From: a virus
Strand: one strand, 5' to 3'
Length of the DNA: 38,472 nucleotides
IMG/VR virus record: IMGVR_UViG_3300037258_000232
Coordinates: 1 to 38,472 of that record
Shown here: piece by piece, positions 4,084 through 36,584 of the stretch
Layout: each line of letters starts with the position of its first letter
Position numbering within the stretch: the stretch's first letter is position 1
The notes under the pieces: model-generated
Database searches by the model: none
Seen by the model: the letters and a program-made list of their open reading frames with translations, nothing else
What the model was told of the DNA's origin: nothing
Made by a program: the position numbers and the translations under genes

Positions 4084-4295
4084 TATTCTTTTTCCTTCCC
4101 TATTAGAAATGCTTTTGCTTCTTCTTCGGTCAAATCTTTTGCCTTGCAAAATCGTAAGGCATAGACAACATCCTTATGCTTAAACATATAGCATAATTCG
4201 GGTCGAATACTACCGTTATCAAGTTCGGCTTCTTCAAACACCTTAGCGATCTCTTTTGCGGCTTTGTTCATCCGTACACCAAATCCGTTATCCAT
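4083..4295 (-). CDS. Hypothetical protein, 70 aa
   Basis: This 70-aa ORF is coupled on both sides by TAATG overlaps (with 4295 upstream and 4083 downstream). It is helical and acidic, with MNKAAKEIAKVFEEAELDNG followed by a short strand-turn region containing two cysteines. No known domain was seen. An alternative internal ATG at residue 9 exists. Operon position suggests an accessory of the ATPase or recombination set. Confidence 0.65.
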   Translation of the reverse strand: MDNGFGVRMNKAAKEIAKVFEEAELDNGSIRPELCYMFKHKDVVYALRFCKAKDLTEEEAKAFLIGKEKE

Positions 4296-4639
4296 TACTT
4301 TTTCTCCTTTAAGGCTGTTTTAACATCGTTAATGAAATTGTCTACTGATTCAAATGCAGCTGCGTCAGTAGCATCTCGACGCTCTAGTTCGGTATTGCGC
4401 TCTTGAAGCTCTTTGTTTCGACGACCCAAGCTTTCATTTTCTTGCTCAAGCCGACGGTTATCTTCGTTAAGCAAATCGTTCTGAGCGCCTAGCTGGCCAA
4501 CTATTTCAGATAGATCAACCAAGCGTTCGTCTTTAGCGTCGAGCTGGCTTACTGGTGATTGTGGTGGGGTTGGTGGTTGATTGTATGGAGCAAAGTTATT
4601 ACTCGGCCCATAGCCATTACGATTTCGGTTTCTCAGCAT
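4295..4639 (-). CDS. Coiled-coil protein, 114 aa
   Basis: The first 35 residues are Asn/Pro/Gln-rich and probably disordered (NQPPTPPQSP). Residues about 38-90 form a clear leucine-zipper-like coiled coil (LVDLSEIVGQLGAQNDLL, then RRLEQENESLGRRNKELQER). A basic helical end follows (ALKEKK). TAATG overlaps join it to both neighbours. It probably dimerises or scaffolds an early complex; no enzymatic role is visible. Confidence 0.7.
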   Translation of the reverse strand: MLRNRNRNGYGPSNNFAPYNQPPTPPQSPVSQLDAKDERLVDLSEIVGQLGAQNDLLNEDNRRLEQENESLGRRNKELQERNTELERRDATDAAAFESVDNFINDVKTALKEKK

Positions 4640-5043: not shown

Positions 5044-5072
5044 AGTGTATCATACTGATTGTATCGTGTCAA
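5044..5072 (-). promoter_or_regulatory. Early leftward promoter P1 (TTGACA-17-TACACT)
   Basis: Read on the minus strand, a perfect TTGACA (5067-5072) is followed after 17 bases by TACACT (5044-5049). The next start is ATG 5007. The same arrangement, with GTGTATCA and TGTCAAG blocks shared on the plus strand, occurs at 9330-9358, indicating two co-regulated host-type sigma-70 promoters. Confidence 0.8.
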
Positions 5073-5608
5073 GTACTTTTTATGCCTGATATTTTCACTT
5101 TGCTGGTACCCAGGCTGTCGTTAAAATCTTGCTTGTTCTCAACTTGCTTTCTAATCTTTATAGCTTCCTCTCTGGTACTAAATTGACCTATTTTCTTACC
5201 TCGATATTCAGCTATCCATTTATTACGGTCTTTTGCATATGATACTCCTGGACAACCTGACCTATTATCTTTGCGTAATCCTCGATTCATACTTTGGATG
5301 TACATTGTAGCCCAGCGACAATTGCTCGGTTCGTAGTTGCCGTCATTGTCTATCCGGTCGAGGGTCATACCTGTGGGGCGCTCACCTATATCTTTCACGA
5401 ATAGTGCAAAGTCATCCCACCGCTCACACACCTTAATGCCCCTGCCACCGTAACGATGATAGGCGTAGTAATTTGGATTATTACAACGGGTACGCATATT
5501 TAGCCATACATGATATAGCGGATGATTGTGCGCTGCCACGTAATGCTTACTACACAACCCTTTGGCTAAGTGTTTAGTCTCACAGCCTTGTATGCTACAA
5601 ATCCTCAT
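5069..5608 (-). CDS. HNH homing endonuclease with AP2 domain
   Basis: The likely start is ATG 5608, inside the last codons of the helicase gene (14-base overlap). It gives 179 aa with three parts: an N-terminal C-x4-C...C-x2-H knuckle (CSIQGC, GLCSKHY), an HNH core with YGGRGIKVCERW and LDRIDNDGNYEPSNCRW (conserved Asn/Cys), and a C-terminal AP2-type DNA-binding domain (PGVSYAKDRNKWIAEY, IGQFSTREEAI). Free-standing enzymes of this kind cut specific DNA and spread themselves into related genomes. It lies directly downstream of the SF2 helicase, whose other side carries a second HNH gene. Confidence 0.88.
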   Translation of the reverse strand: MRICSIQGCETKHLAKGLCSKHYVAAHNHPLYHVWLNMRTRCNNPNYYAYHRYGGRGIKVCERWDDFALFVKDIGERPTGMTLDRIDNDGNYEPSNCRWATMYIQSMNRGLRKDNRSGCPGVSYAKDRNKWIAEYRGKKIGQFSTREEAIKIRKQVENKQDFNDSLGTSKVKISGIKST

Positions 5609-6758
5609 AGTAAGCCATACTCTCGTTAAAGTCGGTTTTAGCTTCCAAGCAACGATATACGGCTGTATCAATAGTCCTATCGACCTTAAAATAGTAATGT
5701 CGCACCATCTGGGTTTGTCCTCCTCGGTAGTTGCGTCCGATTGCTTGTTGGGTATCCATCCAAGAGTAACTTGGTTCATAGAATATTGTAATACTGGCAT
5801 ATTGTAAATTCAAGCCCGCACTTCCTGACTGGTATTGAAGCAGTGTAAGGCTAGGTTTTTGTGGCGTACTTTTCGGTAGGTCACTCTTATGCCCGCTTTG
5901 CTCAAATACTACGCGTCCATACTTGGCTGCTATGTCCAATATAGCTTCTCTGCTGGAGTTGTACTGGTAAAACACAAGGATATGCTCTGCTGTATCGTCA
6001 AGCACCGCAGACAAAGCCTCTGTCCTCGTAGTGGATAGATACTGGCGCAAAGTTGCGTGTAATTTGGCTGGCGTATCGAGTAGCGTGCCATCTTCCATAA
6101 CTCGCTCAACTTTCAACACTCGGTAAGCATCACGCTGCTTAGGTGTGAGATTAATGGTAGTGGTTATGTTAATCAGGTCTGGTAGTTTCAAAATGGCCTT
6201 ATCAAGCCCGAAAGCAACTGACTGCCATAATTGCTTAAGTTTGTCCTCACCTCTGTAACCAATGATACGTGGATAGCCTCGGCTGCGGTCAATCAGTACG
6301 TGCTCTTTAATGAAGCCAGTTTTGTTTTTCCACCAGCCGAATAAAATGCCGTAAGTCTGCAAATCAATGTAGCCATTCGGTATTGCTGTGGCGCTTAAGC
6401 CGATAAGTTGGCGGCAATTCGAGTCAGTAGCAAGCCTGATGATAGCTTTGGCTCGTTGGCTCGTGGCTGCTTTGGCGTAGTGTATCTCGTCCACAATCAG
6501 AATATATGGCTTTGTTGGCGTACCGAGTTTTGCAACCTTGCCAAAACTAACAGGGTAAACTTGCTGGCCTAGCTGCGTTCCAATCTCTTGCCAATCACCT
6601 GAGTTAATTTTGGCTGGTGGGGCAATGACTAAAATCGGCACCCGTTCGGTAGCGTGTTTCATAGCCATAATCGTCTTGCCTGTGCCCGTGTCGGCTGTCA
6701 TGATGACATTGTGAGGCAACGTTTTAAGATACTCGGCTTGCCAAAAATACAACTGCAT
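5595..6758 (-). CDS. SF2 (SNF2-like) DNA helicase
   Basis: This 387-aa protein carries the full set of superfamily 2 motifs: Walker A TADTGTGKT (21-29), DEIH (90-93), SAT (122-124), the motif V region QSGSAGLNLQ (310-319) and motif VI QQAIGRNYRGGQ (337-348). The order and the GLNL/QAIGR.YR.GQ signature place it with the SNF2/DEAD-like phage helicases that move on duplex DNA during replication or recombination. The start ATG 6758 has an AAAGG site in the end of the upstream HNH gene. The gene is bracketed by two homing endonucleases, suggesting a conserved target that they exploit. Confidence 0.9.
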   Translation of the reverse strand: MQLYFWQAEYLKTLPHNVIMTADTGTGKTIMAMKHATERVPILVIAPPAKINSGDWQEIGTQLGQQVYPVSFGKVAKLGTPTKPYILIVDEIHYAKAATSQRAKAIIRLATDSNCRQLIGLSATAIPNGYIDLQTYGILFGWWKNKTGFIKEHVLIDRSRGYPRIIGYRGEDKLKQLWQSVAFGLDKAILKLPDLINITTTINLTPKQRDAYRVLKVERVMEDGTLLDTPAKLHATLRQYLSTTRTEALSAVLDDTAEHILVFYQYNSSREAILDIAAKYGRVVFEQSGHKSDLPKSTPQKPSLTLLQYQSGSAGLNLQYASITIFYEPSYSWMDTQQAIGRNYRGGQTQMVRHYYFKVDRTIDTAVYRCLEAKTDFNESMAYYEDL

Positions 6759-6760
6759 AG

Positions 6761-7210
6761 CTAAAACGCCTTTCCTCTAAAATTAGCTTTAGAAAATACT
6801 ATCTCAAGTGGTAGCCCTAGTTTATAACGTCTCAACAGTGTTATGTTATTTACTCCAAGTTCGATAGACCAATCTTTAGCACACTGAGTTTTACCCTGGT
6901 AGGTAATAAATATATTGTTGCGCCTATTTCGTTGCTGTTCTTTACGAGTAGACCATTTGCAATTATCGGGCGAATAACCCTTGTCATTGTCTATTCGGTC
7001 AAGCAAAGCATCTTTAGGTTTTATGCCCATATCTCTTGTAAAGTTCGTGAACCCCTGCCCGTCTTTACCAGATTGCCAGCGTTCGCAAATTGTTACACCT
7101 CTACCACCATAGTCTTTATACTGTGGATTGTTGGGGTTGTAGCAACGCTGCAACATACTTTGGTAAGCATATACCTGTGGATGTCTACGTTGAGCATTTT
7201 CTTTACGCAT
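6761..7210 (-). CDS. HNH homing endonuclease with C-terminal HTH
   Basis: The 149-aa product shows the HNH layout MLQRCYNPNNPQYKDYGGRG, ICERW, LLDRIDNDKGYSPDNCKWST, then a basic linker (RKEQQRNRRNN). A NUMOD-type helix-turn-helix follows (KTQCAKDWSIELGVNNITLLRRY). It is a homologue of the HNH protein on the other side of the helicase but has a different DNA-recognition end. ATG 7210 lacks a Shine-Dalgarno sequence and sits exactly six bases after TACAAT of its own promoter, so a leaderless, independently expressed mRNA is likely, as expected for a self-contained mobile gene. Confidence 0.88.
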   Translation of the reverse strand: MRKENAQRRHPQVYAYQSMLQRCYNPNNPQYKDYGGRGVTICERWQSGKDGQGFTNFTRDMGIKPKDALLDRIDNDKGYSPDNCKWSTRKEQQRNRRNNIFITYQGKTQCAKDWSIELGVNNITLLRRYKLGLPLEIVFSKANFRGKAF

Positions 7211-7931: not shown

Positions 7932-8123
7932 TTAAAAAGGTATATTTTCCAGCAGTTTGCGCTCTTCTGCAAGTGCCTGCTCAGCTTCAACTGTACCAGT
8001 TATCAGCTTTTCAATTTCGGCCATGATGTCCTCAGGATAGCCGTGGCACTTCTCGTAAAAGAAATCTTTAGCTAGCTGGTCCGTCCAGCCATATTTTATA
8101 GCGTCTTGGATTGTAGTTGTCAT
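7932..8123 (-). CDS. Hypothetical helical protein, 63 aa
   Basis: ATG 8123 follows a strong GGAGG site. The 63-aa product is acidic and helical (DIMAEIEKLITGTVEAEQAL, EERKLLENI) and ends PF, with no Cys motif or membrane span. It lies between the structured noncoding element and a small membrane protein gene. No family was recognised. Confidence 0.65.
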   Translation of the reverse strand: MTTTIQDAIKYGWTDQLAKDFFYEKCHGYPEDIMAEIEKLITGTVEAEQALAEERKLLENIPF

Positions 8124-8176
8124 AATTGGTAATCCTCCAGCGTTAAAATTAATGCTATCTCTTGCGCTAAATTCAT
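8120..8176 (-). CDS. Possible 18-aa coupled leader peptide
   Basis: ATG 8176 follows a GAGGTGGAG site and encodes 18 residues (MNLAQEIALILTLEDYQL) ending in TGA that overlaps the next ATG at 8123. The strong site and ATGA overlap favour translation; the peptide itself is uninformative. Confidence 0.35.
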   Translation of the reverse strand: MNLAQEIALILTLEDYQL

Positions 8177-8197
8177 TTGTAAAACTCCACCTCTCAA

Positions 8198-8443
8198 TTA
8201 AATTATTGATTTTACGATGCTAGGCCACATCGGTAATGCCCAATTTACTATGAAGTAAATATTGATAATCACGCTGATAGCTAGCTTGTGTCGCTTAACC
8301 AAGTGCCAGACTAATTTGCCTGTGCTAATCTTGCTAAGCTCTCGTTGCTGATAGTTCTTCAAACCATCACGACTAACTGCTGTTTTGTCTACTTTGCCAG
8401 CTTCATATTTCATGCCGTCAGTAGAATTTTTAGCTAAAGTCAT
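8198..8443 (-). CDS. Membrane-anchored hypothetical protein, 81 aa
   Basis: ATG 8443 with a GGGTGAG site is preferred over GTG 8452, which would sit too close to it. The first 55 residues are soluble and basic (MKYEAGKVDKTAVSRDGLKN, WHLVKRHKL). Residues about 56-78 form a membrane span (AISVIINIYFIVNWALPMW). The topology suggests a cytoplasmic head with a C-terminal anchor. The function is unknown. Upstream lies a 270-base stretch without a gene. Confidence 0.6.
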   Translation of the reverse strand: MTLAKNSTDGMKYEAGKVDKTAVSRDGLKNYQQRELSKISTGKLVWHLVKRHKLAISVIINIYFIVNWALPMWPSIVKSII

Positions 8444-8452
8444 TTTGCTCAC

Positions 8453-8722
8453 CCTTTCTTGTTTGTTATCTTAACTGCTTACGCCTAGTCGGTACGTTAT
8501 GACCAGTGCTCGACGCACCAAGCCTGTTCTGTACACGCAACCACTGCAATCTATGTGGTTTACTGCATTATTGTGCCTATAGCTGTACTTGGTTTAGTTA
8601 TCTGGTATTCAGAGCTTCTTACGCTCTCGACCAGGTGCAAGCAGTTAAGTTGTTAATATTGTTTTCATTCAATCACTCATCTGTCAGCCTTAGCGGTGTT
8701 AATGTGGACTTAAACGTCCTTT
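8453..8722. other. 270-bp noncoding segment with nested inverted repeats
   Basis: No supported ORF is present. Nested dyads fit one folded RNA: an 11-bp outer stem (8470-8480 with 8639-8649), ACCAAG 8517-8522 with CTTGGT 8588-8593, AACCAC 8539-8544 with GTGGTT 8555-8560, and a small AGAGC/GCTCT hairpin near 8608-8624. The segment also carries one copy of a 29-bp element repeated in inverted orientation at 9224-9252. It could be a noncoding RNA or a long regulatory leader within the leftward early transcript. Confidence 0.5.
8668..8696 (+). repeat. 29-bp element, inverted partner at 9224-9252
   Basis: These 29 bases match the reverse complement of 9224-9252 at 24 positions, and all five differences are transitions. 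Both copies are noncoding and flank the two-gene unit at 8723-9207. Transition-only divergence suggests conserved base pairing or an old duplication. Confidence 0.7.
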
Positions 8723-9067
8723 TTACTCTTCTGTACCGCTTTCGGTTATCTCTTTGAAGTAACGACCTACTTTTTGCTTTAAGAAAACAGAACGAGGAGT
8801 TGTGCTAGCGTTGGTGGTTAAACCAATTCTTCGCTCAACATCTGCAAGTGTTAAATGATGCGGCTTGCCATCTACGGTTGTAAACGTGCCGCTCATTAAT
8901 TCAACTAAGTGCAATCGAGCATAAAACTCTTTGTAGTTAGTTTTAGTGATAGTTCCGATACCAACAAACATGGTTGACCAAATTAGAGTATCGGTAACTG
9001 TCCACTCACTTTTCGTTGTCAATTTCTTGTAGTCTTTACATTTCTCAATATTCCAGTTAAGAGCCAT
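8723..9067 (-). CDS. Hypothetical early protein, 114 aa
   Basis: ATG 9067 overlaps the upstream stop (TAATG) and has AAGGAG about ten bases before it. The 114-aa protein is basic at both ends, with a central region TKTNYKEFYARLHLVELMSG and a DVERRIGLTTN segment that could be a helical DNA-binding unit. No family was recognised. As the second gene after the first early promoter it may be a host-takeover protein, which is inference from position only. Confidence 0.65.
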   Translation of the reverse strand: MALNWNIEKCKDYKKLTTKSEWTVTDTLIWSTMFVGIGTITKTNYKEFYARLHLVELMSGTFTTVDGKPHHLTLADVERRIGLTTNASTTPRSVFLKQKVGRYFKEITESGTEE

Positions 9068-9207
9068 TACAGCATCTCCTTTAAGTCTTTGAACGCCTGG
9101 ACCTGATAGTCGTAGAGTTCAAGCTTACCGTCTGCCGCAAGCATTTCTGCCCACTGGATTGCTGAGCGAATAGCTCTTGCCTGTTCATCGGTTAGTTCTA
9201 GTGTCAT
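9067..9207 (-). CDS. First leftward early gene, 46 aa
   Basis: ATG 9207 (AAGTGAG site about nine bases upstream) encodes 46 residues, all predicted helical (DEQARAIRSAIQWAEMLAAD, QVQAFKDLKEML). It ends at TAA overlapping the next ATG. It is the first gene after promoter 9330-9358, with an untranslated leader of about 115 bases that carries one copy of the 29-bp inverted element. The function is unknown. Confidence 0.65.
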   Translation of the reverse strand: MTLELTDEQARAIRSAIQWAEMLAADGKLELYDYQVQAFKDLKEML

Positions 9208-9223
9208 GGTGATTTCTCACTTT

Positions 9224-9252
9224 CTGCTAAGACTGACGAACGAGTGATTGAA
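9224..9252 (-). repeat. 29-bp element, inverted partner at 8668-8696
   Basis: This is the partner of 8668-8696, lying in the untranslated leader of the first early transcript. In a single leftward RNA the two copies could pair over about 550 bases, enclosing the two small genes between them. Confidence 0.7.
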
Positions 9253-9329
9253 TTGTTAAAGTGCTTTGGTGATGTTGACGGTAACTGCTATATAGCTTTG
9301 TTATGTGTCCGTTCTATCTCACCTTAAAC

Positions 9330-9358
9330 AGTGTATCACAGCAAAGATATCATGTCAA
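9330..9358 (-). promoter_or_regulatory. Early leftward promoter P2 (TTGACA-17-TACACT)
   Basis: On the minus strand TTGACA (9353-9358) and TACACT (9330-9335) are 17 bases apart, matching the architecture of the promoter at 5044-5072. It drives the genes from 9207 leftward and borders the iteron block. Confidence 0.8.
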
Positions 9359-9394
9359 GAATAAAGTCATAAATAGTGTTGTAAAATATGTCAT

Positions 9395-9687
9395 GTAAAC
9401 CAGGTTGTAAACCACTATATACAGTATACAAGTTATGTGTTATAACATACATTTCTAAGGTGAGGAGTTGCAAAAAAATAACACAGACCTACCTTTTTTC
9501 TTGTAAACCATACTCATAATTATGTTATATGTACGCAGGTGAGGCCAAATAGCAGTGCATGAGTAGGTACGTAATGACACGTGCATATAAGAACTTAAAG
9601 AATCATGGTTTACGGTTTACATACAGATAGGCTAAGAAGTGAGATATTATGGTTTACTCAATGGTTTACGGTGCATTTATGGTTTAC
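9395..9687. repeat. Iteron cluster, probable replication origin or operator array
   Basis: Eight-base iterons are present in two orientations. GTAAACCA lies at 9395-9402, 9407-9414 and 9503-9510. TGGTTTAC lies at 9606-9613, 9650-9657, 9662-9669 and 9680-9687, and a 7-base copy GGTTTAC at 9614-9620. Several are spaced by 12 bases. The two groups face each other across AT-rich DNA in a noncoding region between the leftward early promoter and the rightward replication genes. This layout is typical of iteron origins bound by an initiator; a repressor operator array is the alternative. Confidence 0.75.
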
Positions 9688-9723
9688 GTATATCAATGCT
9701 TAAGCTTTTGTTTAATTGCTTAA

Positions 9724-9772
9724 TGACCACCCCGAACAACAACAAACGTTGGTCATGATTGTTATCGTTTGT
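9724..9772. other. Dyad block next to iterons
   Basis: Interlaced inverted repeats TGACCA (9724-9729) with TGGTCA (9750-9755) and ACAAACG (9742-9748) with CGTTTGT (9766-9772) are followed by a G-rich run (GGGGCGGG) and A-tracts. Such features are common beside origins. The stretch from here to 9877 has no other gene. Confidence 0.5.
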
Positions 9773-9877
9773 GGGGCGGGTGATTTTGAGAACTTTTGTT
9801 ATATATGCTCACGATATCTTCCCAAAAAAAATCATGAAAAACACGACTTGCCAAATGCCCAAAATATGACGAAGTAA

Positions 9878-10018
9878 ATGACCAAAAATTTCGCCGATTT
9901 TAGCTTCGTATTTGACCCAAAAAACACCACTGATTTAGGCCCTGAAATTGGCCCCGAAACCACCCCAGATTCTGCCTTAAAAGAGGCCGCCGCAGGCAAG
10001 CGAATTGGTGTGTTATAA
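9878..10018 (+). CDS. Small rightward protein, 46 aa
   Basis: ATG 9878 opens a 46-codon frame with coding-like composition. The first part is aromatic (NFADFSFVFDPKNTTDL), followed by a Pro/Glu-rich linker and a basic helical end (LKEAAAGKRIGVL). There is no Shine-Dalgarno sequence; TATGAC lies seven bases before the ATG, consistent with a leaderless start, though no -35 is evident. It is the first rightward gene beyond the iterons, a position where small initiator accessory or regulatory proteins occur. The function is unknown. Confidence 0.5.
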   Translation: MTKNFADFSFVFDPKNTTDLGPEIGPETTPDSALKEAAAGKRIGVL

Positions 10019-10019
10019 T
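10011..10019 (+). promoter_or_regulatory. Extended -10 promoter TGTTATAAT
   Basis: A perfect extended -10 (TG-T-TATAAT) overlaps the end of the 46-aa gene and lies about 37 bases before ATG 10056. No good -35 is visible, as is usual for extended -10 promoters. Confidence 0.6.
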
Positions 10020-10055
10020 TCGAGCAATAACGTAAGCAGAAAGGTATCAGACAGG

Positions 10056-11039
10056 ATGAGAATAGGAACGATTGAACACCTGGATTTTCCAGTTACTATG
10101 TGGGAGCCTCATAAAGCGCCAGCCTGGAATCATAACCCGACTATCACGAGGGACGACAAGGACCAGGTTTGGATTGGCGTGAGGCACCACGATTTGCTGC
10201 CGCTGACAGTTCACCTTGACCCGACTAACCCGAATGCGAATGAGCCGAGCAGGTTTATGGTGGGGAAGCTTAATGAGAAAACGCTGGAGGTCAGCGACTT
10301 AAAATTGATTGTCCCAGAGCCTGGTAGCTCGGAGTTTTTAGTGAAACATAACACTGAGGACGTGCGGATATTTTGGCGCTATGACGGGCTGCATGGCATC
10401 GGCGTTATCTTCACTCCGCAGGGTATTACGCAGGGTGAGATATTGATTGATTATTTCAATGGCACCTACAAATTGCTACATGATTACGGGCAGCCCTACA
10501 AGCACACCGAGAAAAACTGGTCGCCGCCCACTCAGACTACCGAGGCTTTCGACTTCATTTACAGCCAGTGTGAGGTGGTGAAATACGGGCGACCACGCAA
10601 GGGCGAATCGTACAAGGGTGAGATTCATGGTGGTAGCCAGCTCTTGCCATACAAAGACGGCTGGATAAGCATAGCCCACAGGGTTACTCCAGTGGTTGGT
10701 TTGACGTGGCGCTGGTACCTTACGGTGGCTCGGCTGCACGACTACAACGGCAAGGTTACGCACATCTCTCAATTCTTTGATTTTGGGACTGGCTGGCGAG
10801 AGAATTTGCAGGAGTCAGTGGAGTATGTCAGCGGTGCTATCTGGACCGAAAAGGACAAGGAATTATTGCTATCTCTTGGGGTGCGTGATGAGACGTGTGG
10901 ATTCGTGAGGTTACCAATTAGCGCTTTGAAATGGCAAGAACCAGGTGGCTATTACCACAAGTTTGAGCTTGATAATAGTCTCAAAAAAATCGTCAAAGAA
11001 CACGCTGGGCAGAAACCATTTGCTGGCTTTCTGTTGTAG
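10056..11039 (+). CDS. GH130-like five-bladed beta-propeller protein, copy A
   Basis: The start at ATG 10056 gives 327 aa and follows AGAAAGG; a TTG at 10005 would overlap the promoter. The sequence has the hallmarks of the GH43/GH130-type propeller superfamily: TEDVRIFWR (100-108, the E-D-x-R motif), EKNWSPP (152-158), FDFIYS and GGSQ after His191. GH130 enzymes are mannoside phosphorylases or hydrolases. Related propellers with the EKNW motif occur beside glycosyltransferases in surface-glycan clusters. A paralogue lies at 14042-14995 on the other strand. A role in cleaving or remodelling host or phage glycans is inferred; catalytic competence is unproven. Confidence 0.7.
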   Translation: MRIGTIEHLDFPVTMWEPHKAPAWNHNPTITRDDKDQVWIGVRHHDLLPLTVHLDPTNPNANEPSRFMVGKLNEKTLEVSDLKLIVPEPGSSEFLVKHNTEDVRIFWRYDGLHGIGVIFTPQGITQGEILIDYFNGTYKLLHDYGQPYKHTEKNWSPPTQTTEAFDFIYSQCEVVKYGRPRKGESYKGEIHGGSQLLPYKDGWISIAHRVTPVVGLTWRWYLTVARLHDYNGKVTHISQFFDFGTGWRENLQESVEYVSGAIWTEKDKELLLSLGVRDETCGFVRLPISALKWQEPGGYYHKFELDNSLKKIVKEHAGQKPFAGFLL

Positions 11040-11100
11040 AATTGTCATGGATTAACTGTAGTCTAGTGTCGGACCTTTTCCATAAGCACTATATGTGGTC

Positions 11101-11129
11101 TTGCCAACCCGATTTTTCGAGCCTATAGT
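11101..11129 (+). promoter_or_regulatory. Promoter TTGCCA-17-TATAGT before SF3 helicase
   Basis: TTGCCA (11101-11106) and TATAGT (11124-11129) are 17 bases apart. ATG 11140 is ten bases downstream, leaving a leader of only a few bases and no Shine-Dalgarno sequence. Confidence 0.7.
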
Positions 11130-11139
11130 TAGCAGTCCG

Positions 11140-12501
11140 ATGCCCAGCACTAAGACGAAAGCCGAAGAACAGAAAGCCCTAGATATTGCTCATATCCAGA
11201 AAGCCGTACAGATGTGCCGCTTTAAAGGGTCGCCATTTTACGTGGCTGATAATGGCTACTGGCAACCGCTAAACGAGGACAAATTCAGGCAGCTTGCCTA
11301 TGAGCTTTTGCCTACACCGATGCGTTCACGAGTTAACGAGGCTTGGGACTACATTCAGTACGGCGTAAAAGACCTGACACAGTATGCCCAATATATCCGT
11401 ATGGGCGACCTCGTTTGGGACACAAAAATGGTTGGCTTCACACAGGATGTGGCCGCCGAGGATTGCGTTTATGCTACGCCAATTACGCCTGATTTGGAAC
11501 CAGAAGTGAGTGAATTTATCCTCGACATTGCCAAGCGAGATGATGCTATTTACGGCGATATTTTGCAGACGATTGCGCCTGTTTTTCTGAGTCATAAGCC
11601 AGCTGGCGTGATTTGGTGGAAAGGCATGGGAGCTAACGGCAAGACCACGCTAGCTCAGGTTATATACGACCTTTTCCCAGGTTTCATTAGCAACTTAACA
11701 ATCAAGCAAATTGAGGACGAGCGAGACGCACCAGTGCTCAATGGTATGCTGGCGAACATCGTGAAGGAATCATCTGACGGCTATATTCAGGATTCCAAAG
11801 CCTACAAATCTATTGGCACACATGAGGATTTTCCAGTCCACAAATTCCACTCTCAGCAGAGTGTCATGATTGATGGTGGCCTGCATCACCTCTACTCCTG
11901 TAACAATATCCCGACATTTGCCGACAAGTCTGAGGGCGCTCGCAGGCGCACGCTTATCATCCCATTTGAGGCGAAATTTGCTGATGACCCAACCTTTATC
12001 GAAAAGACTTTTACGCCCGAATTTTACTCGCAACATCTTGGCCTTTTTCTCGAATATGCTAAGAAACTTAAGGAGCAAAATTATCACTACAAATTTGACG
12101 AGCATACCACAGACGTGAAAGCGCTCTACGATATTGGCACCAACAGTGCCGCTACCTACATGGATGAGCTGCTGGCTCAATATGTCTTTGGTTTTAGCTC
12201 TTATGGTAGCCTGTATATGGACTACGAGAACTGGTGCATTGACAATGGCTACACCACTCTTTCACGCTCGCATTTGCGCCGAGCCACCGAGGATTACGAG
12301 TTTCACAATACCACGGTCCGTGGTGAAGAGCAGCAGCTTATCAAGCGGTATGTAAAGCAGGGCTACACCTTTGACCAGTTGGAGCTTATTGGTGGGACGA
12401 GGCCAGGTATGTATCGCCAGATAAATGCCCCCAAAGAGTTGGTTGAAACTGAAAAAGCCAGCACGGGCTTACAGGAGTTATTAGATGCCATCCCTGACTA
12501 A
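11140..12501 (+). CDS. SF3 / D5-like replicative helicase
   Basis: Starting at ATG 11140 (after the TATAGT promoter) the protein has 453 aa. Superfamily 3 motifs are in order: Walker A GMGANGKT (162-169), a Walker B-like region LANIVKESS (204-212), motif C LYSCNNIPTF (251-260) and the Arg cluster GARRRT (266-271). This matches D5-type phage and plasmid helicases that load at origins. The N-terminal 120 residues show no primase motifs, so a separate or host primase must serve. The C-terminal part contains a winged-helix-like segment (SRSHLRRATEDYEF). It is close to the iteron block, consistent with origin unwinding. Confidence 0.88.
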   Translation: MPSTKTKAEEQKALDIAHIQKAVQMCRFKGSPFYVADNGYWQPLNEDKFRQLAYELLPTPMRSRVNEAWDYIQYGVKDLTQYAQYIRMGDLVWDTKMVGFTQDVAAEDCVYATPITPDLEPEVSEFILDIAKRDDAIYGDILQTIAPVFLSHKPAGVIWWKGMGANGKTTLAQVIYDLFPGFISNLTIKQIEDERDAPVLNGMLANIVKESSDGYIQDSKAYKSIGTHEDFPVHKFHSQQSVMIDGGLHHLYSCNNIPTFADKSEGARRRTLIIPFEAKFADDPTFIEKTFTPEFYSQHLGLFLEYAKKLKEQNYHYKFDEHTTDVKALYDIGTNSAATYMDELLAQYVFGFSSYGSLYMDYENWCIDNGYTTLSRSHLRRATEDYEFHNTTVRGEEQQLIKRYVKQGYTFDQLELIGGTRPGMYRQINAPKELVETEKASTGLQELLDAIPD

Positions 12502-13270
12502 CCTGCTCGATATGATGCTTGTCATGGACTACAAAGAGTTCAAGATGATGGGCGACAGTGAGGGCATCAATGCCGATGCCAAAGTTGTGGCCGCCCTACT
12601 GGACCGCTGCTGCCATGCCAAAAGCACACGGGCAATCCACTTGGCATTTGAGCGCCTGGAGGGTGAGCAGCCGACCCCGATTCGGTTCGAGACTCCGAAG
12701 TTCTACACCAGGTTTCACAATGCCAAGCCATCAACCCAAATTGCGGCGTTTTCGTCTGCCTCGGCGGTGCCCACCCCCTCTGAGGTAGACGATGACCCCG
12801 AAATTACCTCGGATATTGCAGGCTCACTGCGTGTCACACTGGACGCACTGCGCCGACTGCCGAAATCAGACGTTGAAGCTTTGCTAACTTACCGAGCTGC
12901 CGTTGACAAAAAACTGCCTAAGGCTGGGCTGTCGGTCCAGAAAGCCAGCGTACGGAAAATCATAGCCGCTAATTTGCTTGTTATCGGGCATAGCGGCAAT
13001 ACCAATGCTATCGAGGAGATATTTTTACAAATTGAGGGTCAACTGGAAAAAGTCATTAAAGTGCTCGGCGGCCATGATGTCTATATAGACGACTACGCTA
13101 CGCTAGAAGCACCTATGAACGCCCAATTAATTGACGGAATTTGGGTGGCTGAAAACGAGGCTGTGACTAATATGTGGGTGGCGAGACTGGCACCCGAAGC
13201 CCAGCCAATAATTAACAAATCGCTAAGTTCCAAGTGGGACGAAATGAATAAAGGAGTAAAGAATGCTTAA
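12485..13270 (+). CDS. Hypothetical protein, possible small terminase subunit, 261 aa
   Basis: ATG 12485 has an AGGAG site and overlaps the helicase stop by 17 bases. Residues 30-70 (AKVVAALLDRCCHAKSTRAI, HLAFERLEGEQPTPI) resemble the segment AxxxLLxRxxxGxxxAIxxxxDRxEGKxP seen in several phage small-terminase-like proteins. An Ala/Ser/Pro linker, a helical middle (SDVEALLTYRAAVDKKL) and an acidic end follow. If it is TerS it is unusually far from the large terminase at 28.1 kb. A replication accessory is an alternative. The resemblance is short and the assignment weak. Confidence 0.5.
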   Translation: MPSLTNLLDMMLVMDYKEFKMMGDSEGINADAKVVAALLDRCCHAKSTRAIHLAFERLEGEQPTPIRFETPKFYTRFHNAKPSTQIAAFSSASAVPTPSEVDDDPEITSDIAGSLRVTLDALRRLPKSDVEALLTYRAAVDKKLPKAGLSVQKASVRKIIAANLLVIGHSGNTNAIEEIFLQIEGQLEKVIKVLGGHDVYIDDYATLEAPMNAQLIDGIWVAENEAVTNMWVARLAPEAQPIINKSLSSKWDEMNKGVKNA

Positions 13271-13817: not shown

Positions 13818-14088
13818 ATTCTTGCAAAGCAAAGGTGCTTACGTTTTAAAAAACGATGCTACCTATCGGCAAGGAGTGCCTGACTTAAGTTTTTGGCACC
13901 CTGACCTTAGTGGTTTTATTGAGGTCAAAGCGCACGAAAACTCACCTTTTCGGCCATTGCAGCAAAAAACCATAGAAAGATTAGAAGCTATGGGGCTGTT
14001 TATTCGAGTAATTCACTCAGAAAACTGGCCTGAGCACAAAGCTAATTTTGAGCAATGGCTTGACGATTATCAGGCAAATAAGCCCTAA
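13786..14088 (+). CDS. VRR-NUC domain nuclease
   Basis: This 100-aa protein is almost exactly a minimal VRR-NUC (PD-(D/E)XK) domain: Glu8 in the first helix, GVPDLSFW (30-37), EVKAH (46-50) with the catalytic E-x-K, and the Gln59/60 helix. Stand-alone phage VRR-NUC proteins are thought to act on branched DNA, like FAN1-type nucleases. ATG 13786 follows a GTAGGAGACGAGG site. It ends in a 47-base convergent overlap with the minus-strand propeller gene. It probably resolves replication or recombination intermediates before packaging. Confidence 0.88.
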   Translation: MEKKLQSEIIKFLQSKGAYVLKNDATYRQGVPDLSFWHPDLSGFIEVKAHENSPFRPLQQKTIERLEAMGLFIRVIHSENWPEHKANFEQWLDDYQANKP

Positions 14089-14995
14089 TTGGCTCACCGA
14101 TATGGCTGTACGGTTCGAAGTGTAAATCGTCAGGATTGATAACGGCGAGCACTGCGTGTGCGTCTCCGTAGCCCATGCCAGCTAAAAGTTGGTTATCGGC
14201 AGTTTTTACTACGCTAGAGATAAATTCAACGCAGTTATCGGCAAATAGCAAAAAACCCTGGCTAATTTCTGTAGCAATACCCTCGGCGTTGTGCTTGATA
14301 GCATAATTGCAATATTGGCGTAGGCCAGTAGTGCCAGGTAACTGAGCACGGTGGACTTTGTGCATGAATGTCAGCCAGCCATTCTCCCATTGAATTGCTT
14401 GTGAGCCACCATGCAGCAACCCGTGGTATTCAATATCACCCTGGAGCACGTTATTTTTGATAGTTTGGGTTGGGGAATAAATGTAGTCGAATTTGTCGGT
14501 TGCTATCTCTGGTGGTGTCCAGTTCTTTTCGATGCGGTCTGCGTATGGCTTAGGCAATGTGCCCTCAATCCAGAGTTCGTCACCTTTAATTTCGCCGATT
14601 GCCATAAATACTGTTTCAGCAATCCTGTTAGTATCAGACATACAACAGCCGATGGCATAAAGTTTGTCATTTCGCACAAATAGCCGAGCGTCCTCTAAAC
14701 CAGTATTATCAATATATTCGTTGGCTTTGCCCTTATAGGCGAGTTTTCGCAGATTTTTTACTTTAAGCGTTTTTTCGTCCAGTTCACCGAGTAGCATGTC
14801 AGTGTGCAATTTATCTTGGGTGAGGCTGGTGTAGCGACCACCAGGGCCGAGTGTCCAGGTACTGCTGCGGATACTGATTAAGAGCTTTCCTTTGAACCTG
14901 ACCAAGCTGGGGTTGTAATACGGCTTTTTGGGGTCATTATCAGGTAAAATGACCGTTTTCGCTTGTAGTAACTCAATGTTTTCTTTCCACGCCAT
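14042..14995 (-). CDS. GH130-like five-bladed beta-propeller protein, copy B
   Basis: The 317-aa paralogue of the 10056-11039 product reads in the opposite direction. Shared landmarks are YYNPSLVRFKGKLLISIRS (the first blade), GLEDARLF (99-106), EKNWTPP (156-162), FDYIYSP and HGGSQ (195-199), all equivalent to copy A. GLEDARLF is closer to the GH130 consensus than copy A. It is a single-gene leftward unit inside a rightward region, with its own promoter overlapping the divergent late promoter. Its substrate is unknown; glycan phosphorolysis, hydrolysis or mere glycan binding are possible. Confidence 0.72.
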   Translation of the reverse strand: MAWKENIELLQAKTVILPDNDPKKPYYNPSLVRFKGKLLISIRSSTWTLGPGGRYTSLTQDKLHTDMLLGELDEKTLKVKNLRKLAYKGKANEYIDNTGLEDARLFVRNDKLYAIGCCMSDTNRIAETVFMAIGEIKGDELWIEGTLPKPYADRIEKNWTPPEIATDKFDYIYSPTQTIKNNVLQGDIEYHGLLHGGSQAIQWENGWLTFMHKVHRAQLPGTTGLRQYCNYAIKHNAEGIATEISQGFLLFADNCVEFISSVVKTADNQLLAGMGYGDAHAVLAVINPDDLHFEPYSHIGEPIRAYLPDNRQAIAQN

Positions 14996-15040: not shown

Positions 15041-15583
15041 ATGAACAGTGAACAGATAGCCAATATTTTAGCGTTTTATTCGTATTACCACCCGAATGAG
15101 AGCGTTGACCAAATTGCGCTGGACTTCAAACTGCCAGCTTCACTAATTGTTAATGGTCTCTATTCTGGCAAAACAGCTGGGCTTTTCACGGCTCAGAAAA
15201 AAGACTCGCTATGGCAAGAAATCACGGTCACGGCAGTGCCTGACGATACTGCTGATTTTGGTAAGGACATCGAACGTATTAAGAGTGTTATTTTGGAAAC
15301 AATCACCAATTTGGCTACTGACAAAGAGGACATTGAGGATGGTAATTTGTTCTTGTGGGTCGGTGCACCTCTAATTATTTCGAAAGTGGCCTGTCAGCTG
15401 CTTGTGAATGAGGGTAGTTTGGCTAAGTATTGGATTCGAGACCTCAAAGACCCGAAAAGCAAATATTACTACCATACTCTCCCTGAGAATGTTGAGAAAA
15501 AGTTTGCCAGCAAAAATTTCAAAAATCAGGGAAAACCGAAAAAAGGCAAAAAAAATGAGCCTCTATCACGAAGAAAGCGATAA
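15041..15583 (+). CDS. Hypothetical protein with N-terminal HTH-like segment, 180 aa
   Basis: ATG 15041 follows an AGAAAGGA site. Residues 18-50 (ESVDQIALDFKLPASLIVNG) look like a helix-turn-helix. The middle is acidic and helical (ERIKSVILETITNLATDKED), and the last 30 residues are a strongly basic, probably disordered tail (KNQGKPKKGKKNEPLSRRKR). DNA binding is likely. As the first gene of the late operon, directly before a small HNH gene, it could be a late regulator or a small terminase; neither can be settled by eye. Confidence 0.6.
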   Translation: MNSEQIANILAFYSYYHPNESVDQIALDFKLPASLIVNGLYSGKTAGLFTAQKKDSLWQEITVTAVPDDTADFGKDIERIKSVILETITNLATDKEDIEDGNLFLWVGAPLIISKVACQLLVNEGSLAKYWIRDLKDPKSKYYYHTLPENVEKKFASKNFKNQGKPKKGKKNEPLSRRKR

Positions 15584-15800
15584 TGACCCTCTATTCAAGG
15601 CGCAGCGCAAAACTTATTTAAACCGATTCAAATTTTGCCGTATTTGCGATGACTGGGTGCTGAGGGACCAGCGGTCAATAGACCACATTATTCCGATGTG
15701 GCGTTACCCTGGAAATTACTGGGATAAAATCAATTGGCAAATGCTTTGTTTAAGGTGTCATAAGAAGAAAACTCGCATTGAGGGCACTTTGGATTTGTGA
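15555..15800 (+). CDS. Small HNH endonuclease (packaging-type)
   Basis: ATG 15555 lies in the 3' end of the previous gene (29-base overlap). It gives 81 aa: two zinc-binding pairs, CRIC (28-31) and CLRC near the C terminus, surround the HNH core DHIIPMWRYPGN...NWQMLC. The compact size and late-operon position match phage HNH proteins such as HK97 gp74 that stimulate terminase, rather than the two larger homing enzymes in the early region. Reading upstream to 15408 in the same frame lies wholly inside the neighbouring gene and is unlikely. Confidence 0.85.
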   Translation: MSLYHEESDNDPLFKAQRKTYLNRFKFCRICDDWVLRDQRSIDHIIPMWRYPGNYWDKINWQMLCLRCHKKKTRIEGTLDL

Positions 15801-20100: not shown

Positions 20101-21368
20101 GCTCTGTTAATCCGATTGTTAGCCACGTAAACCCGTTAGTCCAGCAGGTGGCTGAACAGACTTTGGGCGTAGATAACTATGGCAATAAGTTCCAAAACGG
20201 CCAAGCACGAGTAGATAATGCGCTTGGCATGACTCCTGTAAGTAGTGCTTTCGACAACAATGGGCATTCTCTAGCTGAAAAGGGACTCAATACTTTCGGC
20301 ATTTATACGCCACATATTAAAGGTGATATGGCGGTTAGCCCGAATGCTCCTGGCGCACCAGTCTTGAATGTCAAGGGTGCTCAAAATGGTTCAACCGTAG
20401 CGTTTCCTAAAGACTTTACGGGTGAGAAAAACCAGGCAGCGGTTAATAACGCCGTGTCTGCTGGCGCACCATACTCTAGTAAATTGTCTGCAACTACGGC
20501 TGGTCAAACCCAAGCTCAGCAAAAAGCTTATGACAGTGCTGTTAAGACGCTTAAAACTATTGGCATCACAGATGCTAGCGATGTGCAAAACTTCTCTAAG
20601 CTATCAACTGAGGACCAGGGTAGTTATGTTACTGCCGCTAAACAACTTAATCAGGCTGGAACGTCTATCAGCAGTGGCTCAATTCAGAGTCAATTGGTTA
20701 AGAATGGCAAGACAGCGCTGGCCGCTAATCTCAACAAGGGTATTCCGAGTGACTTGCCCCAAGAAAGCAAAGAAGCTCTGGAAACCTACTCTACGCTTGG
20801 CTCGGACGGTCAAAAAGGCGTGTGGCTCCAGAATAACAATAATGCCCTCAGCTACTACAATGCTGTTCTTAGGCAAAAACAGGCTCAGGGTGCTCTTACT
20901 ACGGCTGATACTGATACAGGAACTACCTATAGTGGTTCGGGTGGTTCACTAGCCGTTAAAGCGCTGGTGGCTAAAACTAATCAGCAAAATAATGTACCGC
21001 AGAGCCTAGTTGAACTGTACAAAAACACCACCAAAACTGAGTACAACAATATGTCGGGTACCGAGAAAACTGAGCTTACGAACTACGCCACTCAGCTTAA
21101 TAAGAATGGTGTCATTGATAAGTTCGGTTTGGCTGACGGCACTTCGGGTAGTTCGGGCAACAGTTCTAGTGGTGCTAATGCAAGGGATTTGGCGGCTGGC
21201 ATTCCTGACAGTGGTAATGCTGTTGTTAAACCTCAGACTAATTCTGACCTGAAAGCTGGTACGGCTAAGTATGTCGCTCCAAAATTAGCGGTAGCTACAG
21301 CAGCAACTGGCAAGAACGATAACCCGTTTGTTCGTAGCATAAGCGCATCGAAAGGTGTTAAGATATAG
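17124..21368 (+). CDS. Large internal virion / ejection protein, 1414 aa
   Basis: The start has a perfect AGGAGGT. This is the longest protein in the window. The N-terminal 130 residues hold a short amphipathic helix (LFSDIISAVGNAANDVGSFF) and Pro/Gln-rich linkers. Residues about 130-330 have Gly/Val/Ala-rich, membrane-active-looking helices. About 340-480 is a Pro/Thr/Glu linker with repeated TGTKP/PPTGTPTP. The rest is mainly helical, with a conserved-looking centre near 770-960 (LPTRAWNALSSLIAQTTVMN, HGANLVSNAFVRG) resembling large polyvalent phage proteins. The size, length and place before the adaptor fit an ejected core protein of a podovirus. No lytic transglycosylase motif was seen. 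Confidence 0.7.
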   Translation: MGLFSDIISAVGNAANDVGSFFSGGNDDDQKRKQNNGPTSSPIIPGSKVNLPSVLRAPQGGPSAPKAPVFTLQNNNNNLTAQPPQSQPQPQPDNGGGGGFFHDLTHNPVTNVVGHDIVSPTINAGKDVGEVAAAAVPEVGLGLARVGTGLVQGVTQVPHILTAATATGTKALANTGLPGANDLNDVVQGANTGVKDATNFVNKPINALNRGIDTVAQDYSNVAPLGDQGYGQEVYKDTQIPLNIIAGLATLGAAPAAEGAEGAADAGESGGLISRISDFLNKARGGSDSDAISKISQPVINVTKPVVNALNTPIKSVTDLIRGGEASEGAGELAGDESAPSENTPPETGTKPIDEPVNSPAGENGTPTVEPGTTETGTKPGPGPSNQGLTPSELQALESKPATATGGTPPTGTPTPADIQAAENNATEQVNKTSENPPTPVPAPTTAAADVSPKEAAAIQAAEAPNQIAADEVPNLLNKTGDKQQDVQNTTNLVRNLLENGRNYEGDDLPTTLARANSHLNSNADVAGALNNRINEGLTDSEASNVRNAIETGSTKGLSDKEATVVKAIQENIENPSNTVRTNLSKDFQAADNHFPQVRQSSVKNALTAANQVKGMNSKINTFNDLLNRNSRFSQGSTLGKFTNNGKTIVGDAPNLGLVAKKDGTFVDKAGKVYQYSRATSQELENAGTKLQAPKDALSAYVRDTLNLKTRADASDYLIKNADNLGLSDAEAEGKTTPVTIKSSQGEDKTFFTDAKTAKDIKDSGIIGNFGKEANLPTRAWNALSSLIAQTTVMNPTAHGANLVSNAFVRGGAGALKDAFTPLDDATRFRMSEDGVHFPTYGKDASNALSRLTGGASKLNERAISAIDAHARAGLYEQLTDKGMAGKDAAKQVNDWLGGKSVYKGDSAQLGIFWKYFVRQNVNAGRILSMAAKGNIKPLINAAVVAGTTYGADKGLQAATGNKNAYAHVPGVVGIANDYLKSGEDLAKGQFRSSVNPIVSHVNPLVQQVAEQTLGVDNYGNKFQNGQARVDNALGMTPVSSAFDNNGHSLAEKGLNTFGIYTPHIKGDMAVSPNAPGAPVLNVKGAQNGSTVAFPKDFTGEKNQAAVNNAVSAGAPYSSKLSATTAGQTQAQQKAYDSAVKTLKTIGITDASDVQNFSKLSTEDQGSYVTAAKQLNQAGTSISSGSIQSQLVKNGKTALAANLNKGIPSDLPQESKEALETYSTLGSDGQKGVWLQNNNNALSYYNAVLRQKQAQGALTTADTDTGTTYSGSGGSLAVKALVAKTNQQNNVPQSLVELYKNTTKTEYNNMSGTEKTELTNYATQLNKNGVIDKFGLADGTSGSSGNSSSGANARDLAAGIPDSGNAVVKPQTNSDLKAGTAKYVAPKLAVATAATGKNDNPFVRSISASKGVKI
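21356..21364 (+). promoter_or_regulatory. Extended -10 TGTTAAGAT, six bases before ATG 21371
   Basis: TG-T-TAAGAT overlaps the last codons of the 1414-aa gene and is exactly six bases from the adaptor ATG, which lacks a ribosome site. Confidence 0.55.
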
Positions 21369-28119: not shown

Positions 28120-29499
28120 GTGGAAATCCCTGTACACTACAGGCCCAGACCGTACCAGGCTGAGTTCTTAAAAAATGCACCCCACCACAGATTTATAGTT
28201 CTGGAGTGGGCTAGGCGTAGTGGCAAGGACCTTACTGGCTTTGCCTATGCGGTAACTCGCATGGTGCAAGAGCCAATGGGGGTAATTATCATTTATCCCA
28301 CCAAGACGCAGGGTTACAACTCGTTTTGGAACAACGTAGAAAATGACGGCTTTCGTACTATTGAGCACGTGCCCAAAGAGCTGATAGCCAGTCTCTATTC
28401 GACCTCTGATAACATGAGCATGGTGCTTAAAAATGGCTCAACGCTTACGCTTGTAGGTTCTACCAACAATCCTGAGAGTCTGCGTGGTGCTAACACCAAG
28501 CTTTATATCTTACCTGAGTTCGTGGACCAGCCAGTGGGTGTACTTGGTATTTTGCGACCTATCGTTGCGGCTAACGGAGGGCAAATACTTATCCAGTCAA
28601 CGCCGAAACAAGACGGTATTTCTGGCGGCACGTTTATTAAATTGCTCGAAGCTGCTGAAAAAGACCCCACACAGTACGCCCAGCGAGTAGATGCCACGCA
28701 GTATATGAGTGAGGCTCAGCTACGGCAGGTGCGCTCTGACTATATTACTGAGTACGGCAATGATTTCTTGTATCGCCAGGAGTTCCTGCTAGACGAGGGC
28801 CAAGCGCTGGCTACCAGCTATTATGGTAATTTCATTACTAGAGCCAGAGACCAAAAACGCATTGGCGAATTTCCTCATAAACCAGCGTTGCCTGTGTTTG
28901 TTTCTTACGACCTGGGGCTTAGTGACTCCACAGCTATGCTGTTTTGGCAGTATGAAAAGAAAAAGCTCAATCTTATTGATGCTTACGAGACCCATGATGT
29001 TGGAGACGAGGCGTTAATTAAATATATTAAAGCCAAGCCCTACAACTACGGCTGGCACTTTCTACCGCACGATGGTGCTAAGCGTGACGATAAAGAGGCG
29101 ATTGCTCGTATCCAACACTGGCGTAACGCTGGGATTGTCAATGCTAGCCTGCTTCGAAAGGAAAACAAAGAGGATGGCATTAGGCGTGCCATTGACTTAC
29201 TGAATCAGCCAACCACCACCATAAACAAAGCTACCACCACTGAATTTGTCAGAAAACTAGCACTTTATAAGCGAAAATTCAATCAGTTTACTGGCGACTA
29301 CGAGGGGCCAGAGCACAAAAGCGAATCTCATTACGCTGACTCCTGGCGTTACGTCAATGCCGCTATAGAGCAGGGATTTCGCAAAGACGGTACACCATAT
29401 ATGACATTACCAGGCAAAAAGAAAGAGCTTGAACCTGTGCTAGAGGATGAATGGGGTGATTCTTTCCAGGGTGATGACGATTGGGCCACAGAATTTTAG
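28120..29499 (+). CDS. Large terminase subunit (ATPase-nuclease), 459 aa
   Basis: This protein starts at GTG 28120, three bases after the previous stop and with no clear ribosome site. It has the packaging-motor ATPase motif WARRSGKD (30-37), Walker B-like LYILPEF (128-134) and a downstream STPK (160-163) coupling region. Its RNase H-like nuclease has VSYDLGLSDS (261-270, first Asp) and HYADSWRYV (404-412, last Asp). TerL translocates DNA into the prohead and cuts it. The order portal-scaffold-TerL-capsid is unusual, because TerL normally precedes portal. Confidence 0.93.
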   Translation: MEIPVHYRPRPYQAEFLKNAPHHRFIVLEWARRSGKDLTGFAYAVTRMVQEPMGVIIIYPTKTQGYNSFWNNVENDGFRTIEHVPKELIASLYSTSDNMSMVLKNGSTLTLVGSTNNPESLRGANTKLYILPEFVDQPVGVLGILRPIVAANGGQILIQSTPKQDGISGGTFIKLLEAAEKDPTQYAQRVDATQYMSEAQLRQVRSDYITEYGNDFLYRQEFLLDEGQALATSYYGNFITRARDQKRIGEFPHKPALPVFVSYDLGLSDSTAMLFWQYEKKKLNLIDAYETHDVGDEALIKYIKAKPYNYGWHFLPHDGAKRDDKEAIARIQHWRNAGIVNASLLRKENKEDGIRRAIDLLNQPTTTINKATTTEFVRKLALYKRKFNQFTGDYEGPEHKSESHYADSWRYVNAAIEQGFRKDGTPYMTLPGKKKELEPVLEDEWGDSFQGDDDWATEF

Positions 29500-35661: not shown

Positions 35662-35739
35662 TTACCTCTTAATTATATAAACTACACCGAATACGGCTAA
35701 AACTACTATAACAACAAATGCCCAAAGAGGTAGGGTCAT
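35662..35739 (-). CDS. 25-aa single-span membrane peptide of lysis cassette
   Basis: ATG 35739 overlaps the endolysin stop by one base (TAATG), a coupled start. The 25 residues (MTLPLWAFVVIVVLAVFGVV and YIIKR) are almost one transmembrane helix with a basic end. It lies between endolysin and holin genes, so it is probably an accessory holin, antiholin or lysis regulator. Confidence 0.6.
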   Translation of the reverse strand: MTLPLWAFVVIVVLAVFGVVYIIKR

Positions 35740-36584
35740 TATTTGACCCTTATCTGGTCGCCAGGCCAAATTACGCTGTAATTGCGAGCTGGGTGTCCAG
35801 CATTCGGGTTAAGTCCCTCAATTTGAGCGAGGTTTAGAGCATGATTAGCTGCAATAGTGCTGAGGTTGTCGCCACTCACTACTGTGTAATATTCAGGATT
35901 GCTAACAGGTGCGCTTGCTGGCTGTCCACTGACGTGCAGTACATCACCAGGCCAGATAACACCGAAGTTACCTGCTGGGTGTCCAGCGCTGGGGTTCATT
36001 TGCTCTAATTGACCGAGAGAGAGACCGTGCTTAGCAGCGATGGTGCTCATATTGTCACCAGATACCACAGTGTAACTGTCACCGCTAACAGGAGCAGGCG
36101 CAGGATTTGGTGCAGGATTACCGCCAACGTGTCCAGCTAAGGTGTTCATGATACCTACGACTTCCTCAGCCTCAGCGTCATGGCTAGAACTGTAGTGAAC
36201 AAAGATACCGTGAGGTGTTGCAGCGCCGCCCCAGTATTCCTGACCCTCGTGTAGATAATGTGTGTTCAAAAAGTCAGCGTAATCGTGGACGCTAACAGCT
36301 TGTGAGGCATAAGAGCTAGCCAAGTCAGGGTCACTATCTACGGCATTGAAGCCAAATAAGTTATTACGAGTTTCGGCGTAGTTGCTGGTGCCGTGTGCGC
36401 TCTCAACGTCAGCATGCGCCAAAATAAACAGGGCGTTCAAGTCATACTGGTTTTCAGCATCAACAAGAGCCTGCCAAAAGTCGGGGTGGTATCCGTTATC
36501 AGAGCGCATAGCAGCCTCAGCTGCCTGTAGTTGCCCAGCGGTTAAGCCGCTTTTGGTGAGTAGGTTGCTATTGATATCAAACAT
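35739..36584 (-). CDS. Endolysin: glucosaminidase domain with two LysM repeats
   Basis: ATG 36584 follows AAAGGAG. Residues 1-150 are a GH73-like N-acetylglucosaminidase (ILAHADVESAHGTSNY with catalytic Glu61, NNLFGFNAVDSDP, AVSVHDYADFLNTHY). After a Pro/Ala linker come LysM repeats at 171-218 and 233-280 (YTVVSGDNMSTIAAKHGLSL, NPSAGHPAGNFGVIWPGD; then YTVVSGDNLSTIA). There is no signal peptide, so export through the holin pore is expected. It cleaves peptidoglycan glycan strands between GlcNAc residues. Confidence 0.92.
   Translation of the reverse strand: MFDINSNLLTKSGLTAGQLQAAEAAMRSDNGYHPDFWQALVDAENQYDLNALFILAHADVESAHGTSNYAETRNNLFGFNAVDSDPDLASSYASQAVSVHDYADFLNTHYLHEGQEYWGGAATPHGIFVHYSSSHDAEAEEVVGIMNTLAGHVGGNPAPNPAPAPVSGDSYTVVSGDNMSTIAAKHGLSLGQLEQMNPSAGHPAGNFGVIWPGDVLHVSGQPASAPVSNPEYYTVVSGDNLSTIAANHALNLAQIEGLNPNAGHPARNYSVIWPGDQIRVK

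Follow-up and report, generated by a model that had tools for sequence, protein, structure and literature searches.

The origins of PICIs consist of iterons flanking A+T-rich DNA (PMC6092414). In published relatives of the SF3 helicase described below, a C-terminal domain reads the iterons (PMC7581432), and in P4 the origin repeats are also read by a C-terminal domain (PMC4234260). The stretch analysed here (the window) is a whole linear virus contig of IMG/VR, 38,472 bases long. In it a short asymmetric word recurs in an array that, on balance, is rather likely to be the iteron part of a phage replication origin served by an SF3 helicase.

The leftward early arm of the window encoded recombination and helicase genes (YqaJ exonuclease, a Sak4-like protein and an SNF2-type helicase). 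The rightward arm started with a protein without family match (10056–11039) and the SF3 helicase (11095–12501), followed by a 261-aa protein, methyltransferase-like and resolvase-like proteins, and later by large genes without assignment, the large terminase (28120–29499) and a glycosyltransferase. An endolysin-like gene was located at 35739–36584 on the minus strand, and HNH or HNH-like genes at 5069–5800, 6761–7210 and 15408–15800. The proteins encoded at 10056–11039 and 14042–14995 were paralogous and without family match, flanked the replication genes and were kept in relatives; they look like putative sugar-acting enzymes. No near or distant DNA relative of positions 8000–13000 was found among ~50,700 deposited phage records, and a genome-collection scan with the SF3 helicase gave no match. 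The same scan with the terminase detected one contig, L018 (terminase 43%, SF3 gene 37% identical, no array), which was binned in a Saccharibacteria genome; a contig of phage genes can be misbinned, so Saccharibacteria are a possible host only. In the record IMGVR_UViG_3300028800_000028 the Sak4-like gene was at one contig end and the rest of that arm at the other, which points to a near-complete and circularly permuted genome of ~41 kb.

As shown in Table 1, seven exact copies of TGGTTTAC were located within 293 bp (9395–9687). These and the 7-mer GGTTTAC at 9614–9620 (+), all reported by a first-pass annotation, were found by exact matching. Against dinucleotide-preserving shuffles (300–500 per test), the gap count of seven compared with a mean of 0.08 and was reached in 0/500, and the top repeated 8-mer of the gap had 7 copies against a shuffle maximum of 4 (0/300 shuffles). 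When all gaps and all 8-mers were scanned with no prior motif, no other non-coding cluster of an 8-mer in the contig was as dense as the array. The whole contig contained 8 exact copies, the eighth at 8556 inside the coding-dense left arm; the octamer was thus nearly confined to the array, as had been expected. A 12-bp spacing, previously ascribed to several copies, held for two pairs (9395/9407 and 9650/9662) but not for the remaining gaps (96, 103, 7, 37 and 18 bp). The copies formed two opposed groups separated by DNA of 63% A+T (9511–9605); A+T content was 70% between iterons 2 and 3 (9415–9502) and 66% over 9395–9687.

Table 1. Features of the array region and of the SF3 helicase gene (window coordinates)
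Feature	Position	Strand	Basis or remark
Leftward sigma-70-like promoter, TTGACA-N17-TACACT	9330–9358	−	Conserved in relatives
Candidate unwinding element, overlapping the left iterons	9369–9448		Least stable 80-bp segment of the contig
Iteron 1, TGGTTTAC	9395–9402	−	Exact match
Iteron 2, TGGTTTAC	9407–9414	−	Exact match
Iteron 3, TGGTTTAC	9503–9510	−	Exact match
Iteron 4, TGGTTTAC	9606–9613	+	Exact match
One-mismatch iteron, CGGTTTAC	9613–9620	+	Overlaps the last base of iteron 4
Iteron 5, TGGTTTAC	9650–9657	+	Exact match
Iteron 6, TGGTTTAC	9662–9669	+	Exact match
Iteron 7, TGGTTTAC	9680–9687	+	Exact match
Conserved block, GGGGCGGGTGATTTTGAGAACTTTTGTTATATAT	9773–9806	+	Right edge of the array; comparison with L003
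SF3 (P4/D5-type) helicase, proposed initiator	11095–12501	+	DUF5906, TIGR01613, PHROG primase C-terminal families, SaPI5 7ola
Predicted C-terminal winged helix of the SF3 helicase, proposed iteron reader	12145–12387 (residues ~351–431)	+	AlphaFold2, pLDDT mostly 70–90

The gene layout confirmed that the array lies in a gene-free block between divergent units, one leftward and one rightward. The candidate unwinding element ranked first in a contig-wide nearest-neighbour stability scan, in which the runner-up segments scored close. The GC skew had its minimum at 9154 and the T-A skew turned at 9325. A GC-skew signal had been anticipated at 9.4–9.8 kb; both skews do turn beside the array, but divergent transcription explains this equally well. 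Conservation of the leftward early promoter extended well past its hexamers (TTGACATGATAC...TGATACACT) in the window, L003, L004, L015 and L012. The iteron words did not overlap this promoter, and the distance from it to the first word was ~37–83 bp in most contigs and ~700 bp in L003, where genes lie in between; such a variable distance is a poor fit to a promoter-bound regulator. Octamers were also considered as −35 elements (TTTACA resembles TTGACA) and rejected, the two leftward matches having a poor −10 and being inconsistent across copies.

Two dyads annotated to the right of the iterons, TGACCA/TGGTCA (9724/9750) and ACAAACG/CGTTTGT (9742/9766), were present as sequences but were rejected as origin elements, since strand folding was no better than that of shuffles (z −0.78) and they were not seen in L003. 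The G-rich run noted beside the array was real. A 34-bp block, GGGGCGG.TG.TTTTGA.AACT.TTGTTATATAT, was shared by the window and L003 (at ~5190), with looser versions in L004 and L015. DnaA boxes (TTWTNCACA) matched twice in the contig, at 20582 and 26261, and never at the array; a DnaA-dependent phage origin was rejected on this ground.

Related contigs were found with four queries: the SF3 helicase, the protein encoded beside it, the SNF2-type helicase and the Sak4-like protein. The divergent gap recurred in five of them (L003, L004, L015, L020 and L043) and in a weaker case (L012), and in every such gap a short asymmetric word was repeated on both strands, spelled in its own way: TGGTTTAC in the window and L003, TGTTTACA in L004 and L015, TGTCTACA in L020 and TGTCTC(A) in L043. 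Cross-counting gave a nearly diagonal result (TGGTTTAC, 7 in the window and 3 in L003; TGTTTACA, 4 in L004 and 7 in L015; TGTCTACA, 5 in L020; TGTCTC, 6 in L043). In L003 (SF3 75% identical) the three octamers of the homologous gap compared with 0.05 expected (0/500), and in L004 (SF3 75% over the part present) the core GTTTAC, mostly as TGTTTACA, occurred 7 times with 0.9 expected (0/500); both arrays depend on the window's word or core, de novo k-mer tests for either contig alone not being significant. The seven words of L015 (SF3 66%) were reached in 0/500 shuffles, and in L020 (SF3 46%) the GTCTAC core gave 0/500 and a de novo 9-mer test 0/300. The word of L043 (SF3 41% over residues 16–397) was found after looking, and its best de novo k-mer was marginal (6/300). 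The five GTATAC words of L012, a contig that does not include the SF3 gene, are suggestive only: the de novo test failed and the targeted result (2/500) concerned a word chosen after looking. Whole-contig counts in the window, L003, L004 and L015 placed the majority of word copies inside the gap.

All six arrays were located between divergent units. The opposed groups of the window proved not to be a general rule, orientation being mixed in L003, L004, L015, L020 and L043. A kept position, spellings that change in concert and mixed orientation point to a binding-site array for a co-evolving protein; judged from these sequences, this is the mark of a conserved protein-binding array whose word would drift from phage to phage.

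Some relatives had further features of their own. In L003 (4833–4903) a perfect 17-bp inverted repeat (TTTACACTGGTTTACAT and its complement, separated by a long loop) was built around two iterons; it folded strongly (z −5.3) and such a repeat occurred in this relative only. An HNH or HNH-like gene (4148–4465) and another inserted gene lay between the array and the leftward promoter of L003. The gene that follows the Sak4-like gene in L015 contained a tandem coding repeat (CAGATTAGCACCACG-like, at ~13895–14300), its 8-mers present in 11–14 copies within 400 bp; the window counterpart is a 252-aa gene without family match.

No comparable array was found in the DNA examined of SF3 relatives of 35–40% identity, mostly of one-way gene order (L021–L042, L045 and L018). 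Thus, the helicase family does not always bring an array, and the origins of these relatives must be built differently or lie elsewhere. Many of them had an ACGCTA...TAGCGT-like motif and then AGGGGTA.AATAGAGGGTA before the SF3 gene, and L018, L023 and L028 also had a DnaA-box-like TTATCCACA upstream of it; these motifs may mark a regulatory site or an origin of another type. The ATCTTACAC repeats upstream of the SF3 gene in L023 and L025 were discarded as lying inside a coding repeat.

The SF3 helicase (468 aa) started ~1.4 kb to the right of the array, close to the ~1.5 kb first given. It matched DUF5906 above the gathering score, PHROG 864 (E 8e-39) and, below the curated cut-off, TIGR01613 (P4-family, E 3e-21), and these profiles identified a P-loop SF3/D5-type ATPase core related to phage and plasmid primase C-terminal helicases. 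Its closest solved relative was the SaPI5 primase-helicase 7ola (profile E 4e-16), which also ranked first in Foldseek with an AlphaFold2 model built from 27 sequences (VIA-align Z 14.5); a model from 5 sequences (pLDDT 38) was discarded. The resemblance covered most of the helicase, from SaPI5 residue ~333 onward, and no primase catalytic family was found in its 468 aa. The model was poor in the ATPase core (residues 198–287, pLDDT <50) and fair in the C-terminal part, where a winged helix was predicted (helices 351–361, 370–384 and 391–400; strands 403–409 and 415–421) with weak structural matches to ArgR/AhrC DNA-binding domains. The recognition-helix segment (HLRRATEDY) was mostly common to the window and L003, which have the same octamer; L015 and L020, with other spellings, differed in it. 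In these few sequences it is suggestive that recognition-helix changes may track iteron spelling.

The SF3 helicase was the sole recognised initiator-type protein, and it was encoded ~1–3.5 kb from the array in all six contigs. It is the best candidate for the array binder; the words may instead be bound by an initiator of the host or by an early protein that was not recognised. The absence of an obvious Rep protein had suggested a novel initiator; given the resemblance to the SaPI5 primase-helicase and the predicted C-terminal winged helix, none is needed.

The main rival to the origin reading is an operator or enhancer cluster, in which an early phage regulator would bind the words and repress or activate the divergent early promoters, the spellings being immunity or regulatory specificities. 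The array always lies between divergent units, the classic place of an operator, and adjoins a conserved sigma-70-like promoter; a repressor acting as a monomer can recognise an asymmetric site, cluster A mycobacteriophages being an example (PMC9283540), and the window encodes an HTH protein at 2017–2283. We nevertheless regard such a cluster as unlikely, if well worth weighing. That HTH protein, the only HTH regulator recognised in the window, had no match in any relative searched (some of these contigs being fragments) and was rejected as a conserved regulator, and the genes adjoining the array in L003, L004, L015 and L020 gave no match to an HTH family, which weakens the operator explanation without removing it. 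The words are also clear of the leftward promoter at every distance observed, and they are clustered in mixed orientation, whereas cluster A sites occur genome-wide and are oriented with transcription (PMC9283540).

It seems quite improbable that the array serves another transaction of the DNA, be it packaging (a pac site), partition or architectural binding of a host protein. Packaging sites can carry repeated boxes, and the gene directly after the helicase (12485–13270) may be small-terminase-like on a reading of its sequence, with no family match, but the large terminase is encoded far off. For partition, none of the proteins scanned matched a ParA/ParB family, and for a host protein, concerted respelling at a conserved position fits a dedicated phage-encoded binder better. 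There is practically no room left for chance or low-complexity repeats: the gap is A+T-rich, but the counts in the window, L015 and L020 were reached in none of 300–500 shuffles, and the arrays of the relatives, including the window octamer in the homologous gap of L003, refute this reading.

The iteron origin thus remains the best explanation of the array. Comparison with relatives strengthened this part of the first-pass annotation, while the novel initiator, the dyads and the opposed-group rule did not stand. In favour of an origin are an initiator-type helicase gene close to every one of the six arrays, the minimum of duplex stability in the contig (80 bp, 9369–9448), the skew turns at 9154 and 9325 and the varying distance to the conserved leftward promoter. 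Against it stand the position of all six arrays between divergent units and the separation of array and helicase gene, which are direct neighbours in PICIs. The SF3 helicase probably binds the octamers, and replication probably starts at the array. In the proposed mechanism the helicase would bind the octamers via its C-terminal winged helix, assemble as hexamers on the array, melt the adjoining A+T-rich DNA (~9369–9502) and load as the replicative helicase, after which priming and copying would fall to enzymes of the host and perhaps of the phage.

The locus offers a concrete, testable candidate origin/initiator pair for a group of uncultivated phages, and the relatives, alike in layout and different in word, suggest that the specificity of the origin and, presumably, the binding domain change together. 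A further proposal, which we hold only tentatively, is that in this phage lineage, possibly infecting Saccharibacteria, a primase-less SF3 helicase and its iterons co-diverge fast, giving mutually exclusive origin words (GTTTAC, GTCTAC, perhaps GTATAC, and GTCTC cores). If so, these phages would provide a natural series in which to read the recognition code of the winged helix and to examine origin specificity when phages co-infect, and the helicase-iteron code would be directly testable with synthetic DNA and purified protein.

The locus resembled the SaPI/PICI module in its related helicase (SaPI5 being the best solved match) with a C-terminal DNA-binding domain, here predicted, and in short iterons on both strands with A+T-rich DNA beside or between them. 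Multiple short iterons with a phage-specific word, as in the PICI/SaPI type, were found here, and we infer that the phage's own protein reads them. In SaPI/PICI the origin is immediately 3′ of rep, whereas the array here precedes the SF3 gene by 1.4 kb, is separated from it by another gene and lies between divergent units; the helicase here has no primase domain, and a tailed phage (encoding a large terminase) takes the place of a satellite island. SCCmec Cch2 is likewise a stand-alone P4/D5-type helicase without fused primase, with direct repeats bound by its C-terminal domain, as is proposed here; its iterons, however, are downstream of the operon and its partner is CCPol-MP, no such partner being recognised here. 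P4 alpha shares the P4-family SF3 helicase and a C-terminal winged helix reading short repeats (here a predicted fold with a proposed role) but contains a TOPRIM primase domain, absent here. Cluster A mycobacteriophage operators and stoperators are also short asymmetric sites, some near early promoters; they are scattered genome-wide and oriented with transcription, whereas 7 of the 8 exact copies here lie in 293 bp and orientation in the relatives is mixed. The array is probably an origin of the P4/SaPI kind, new in its placement and lineage and known in its kind.
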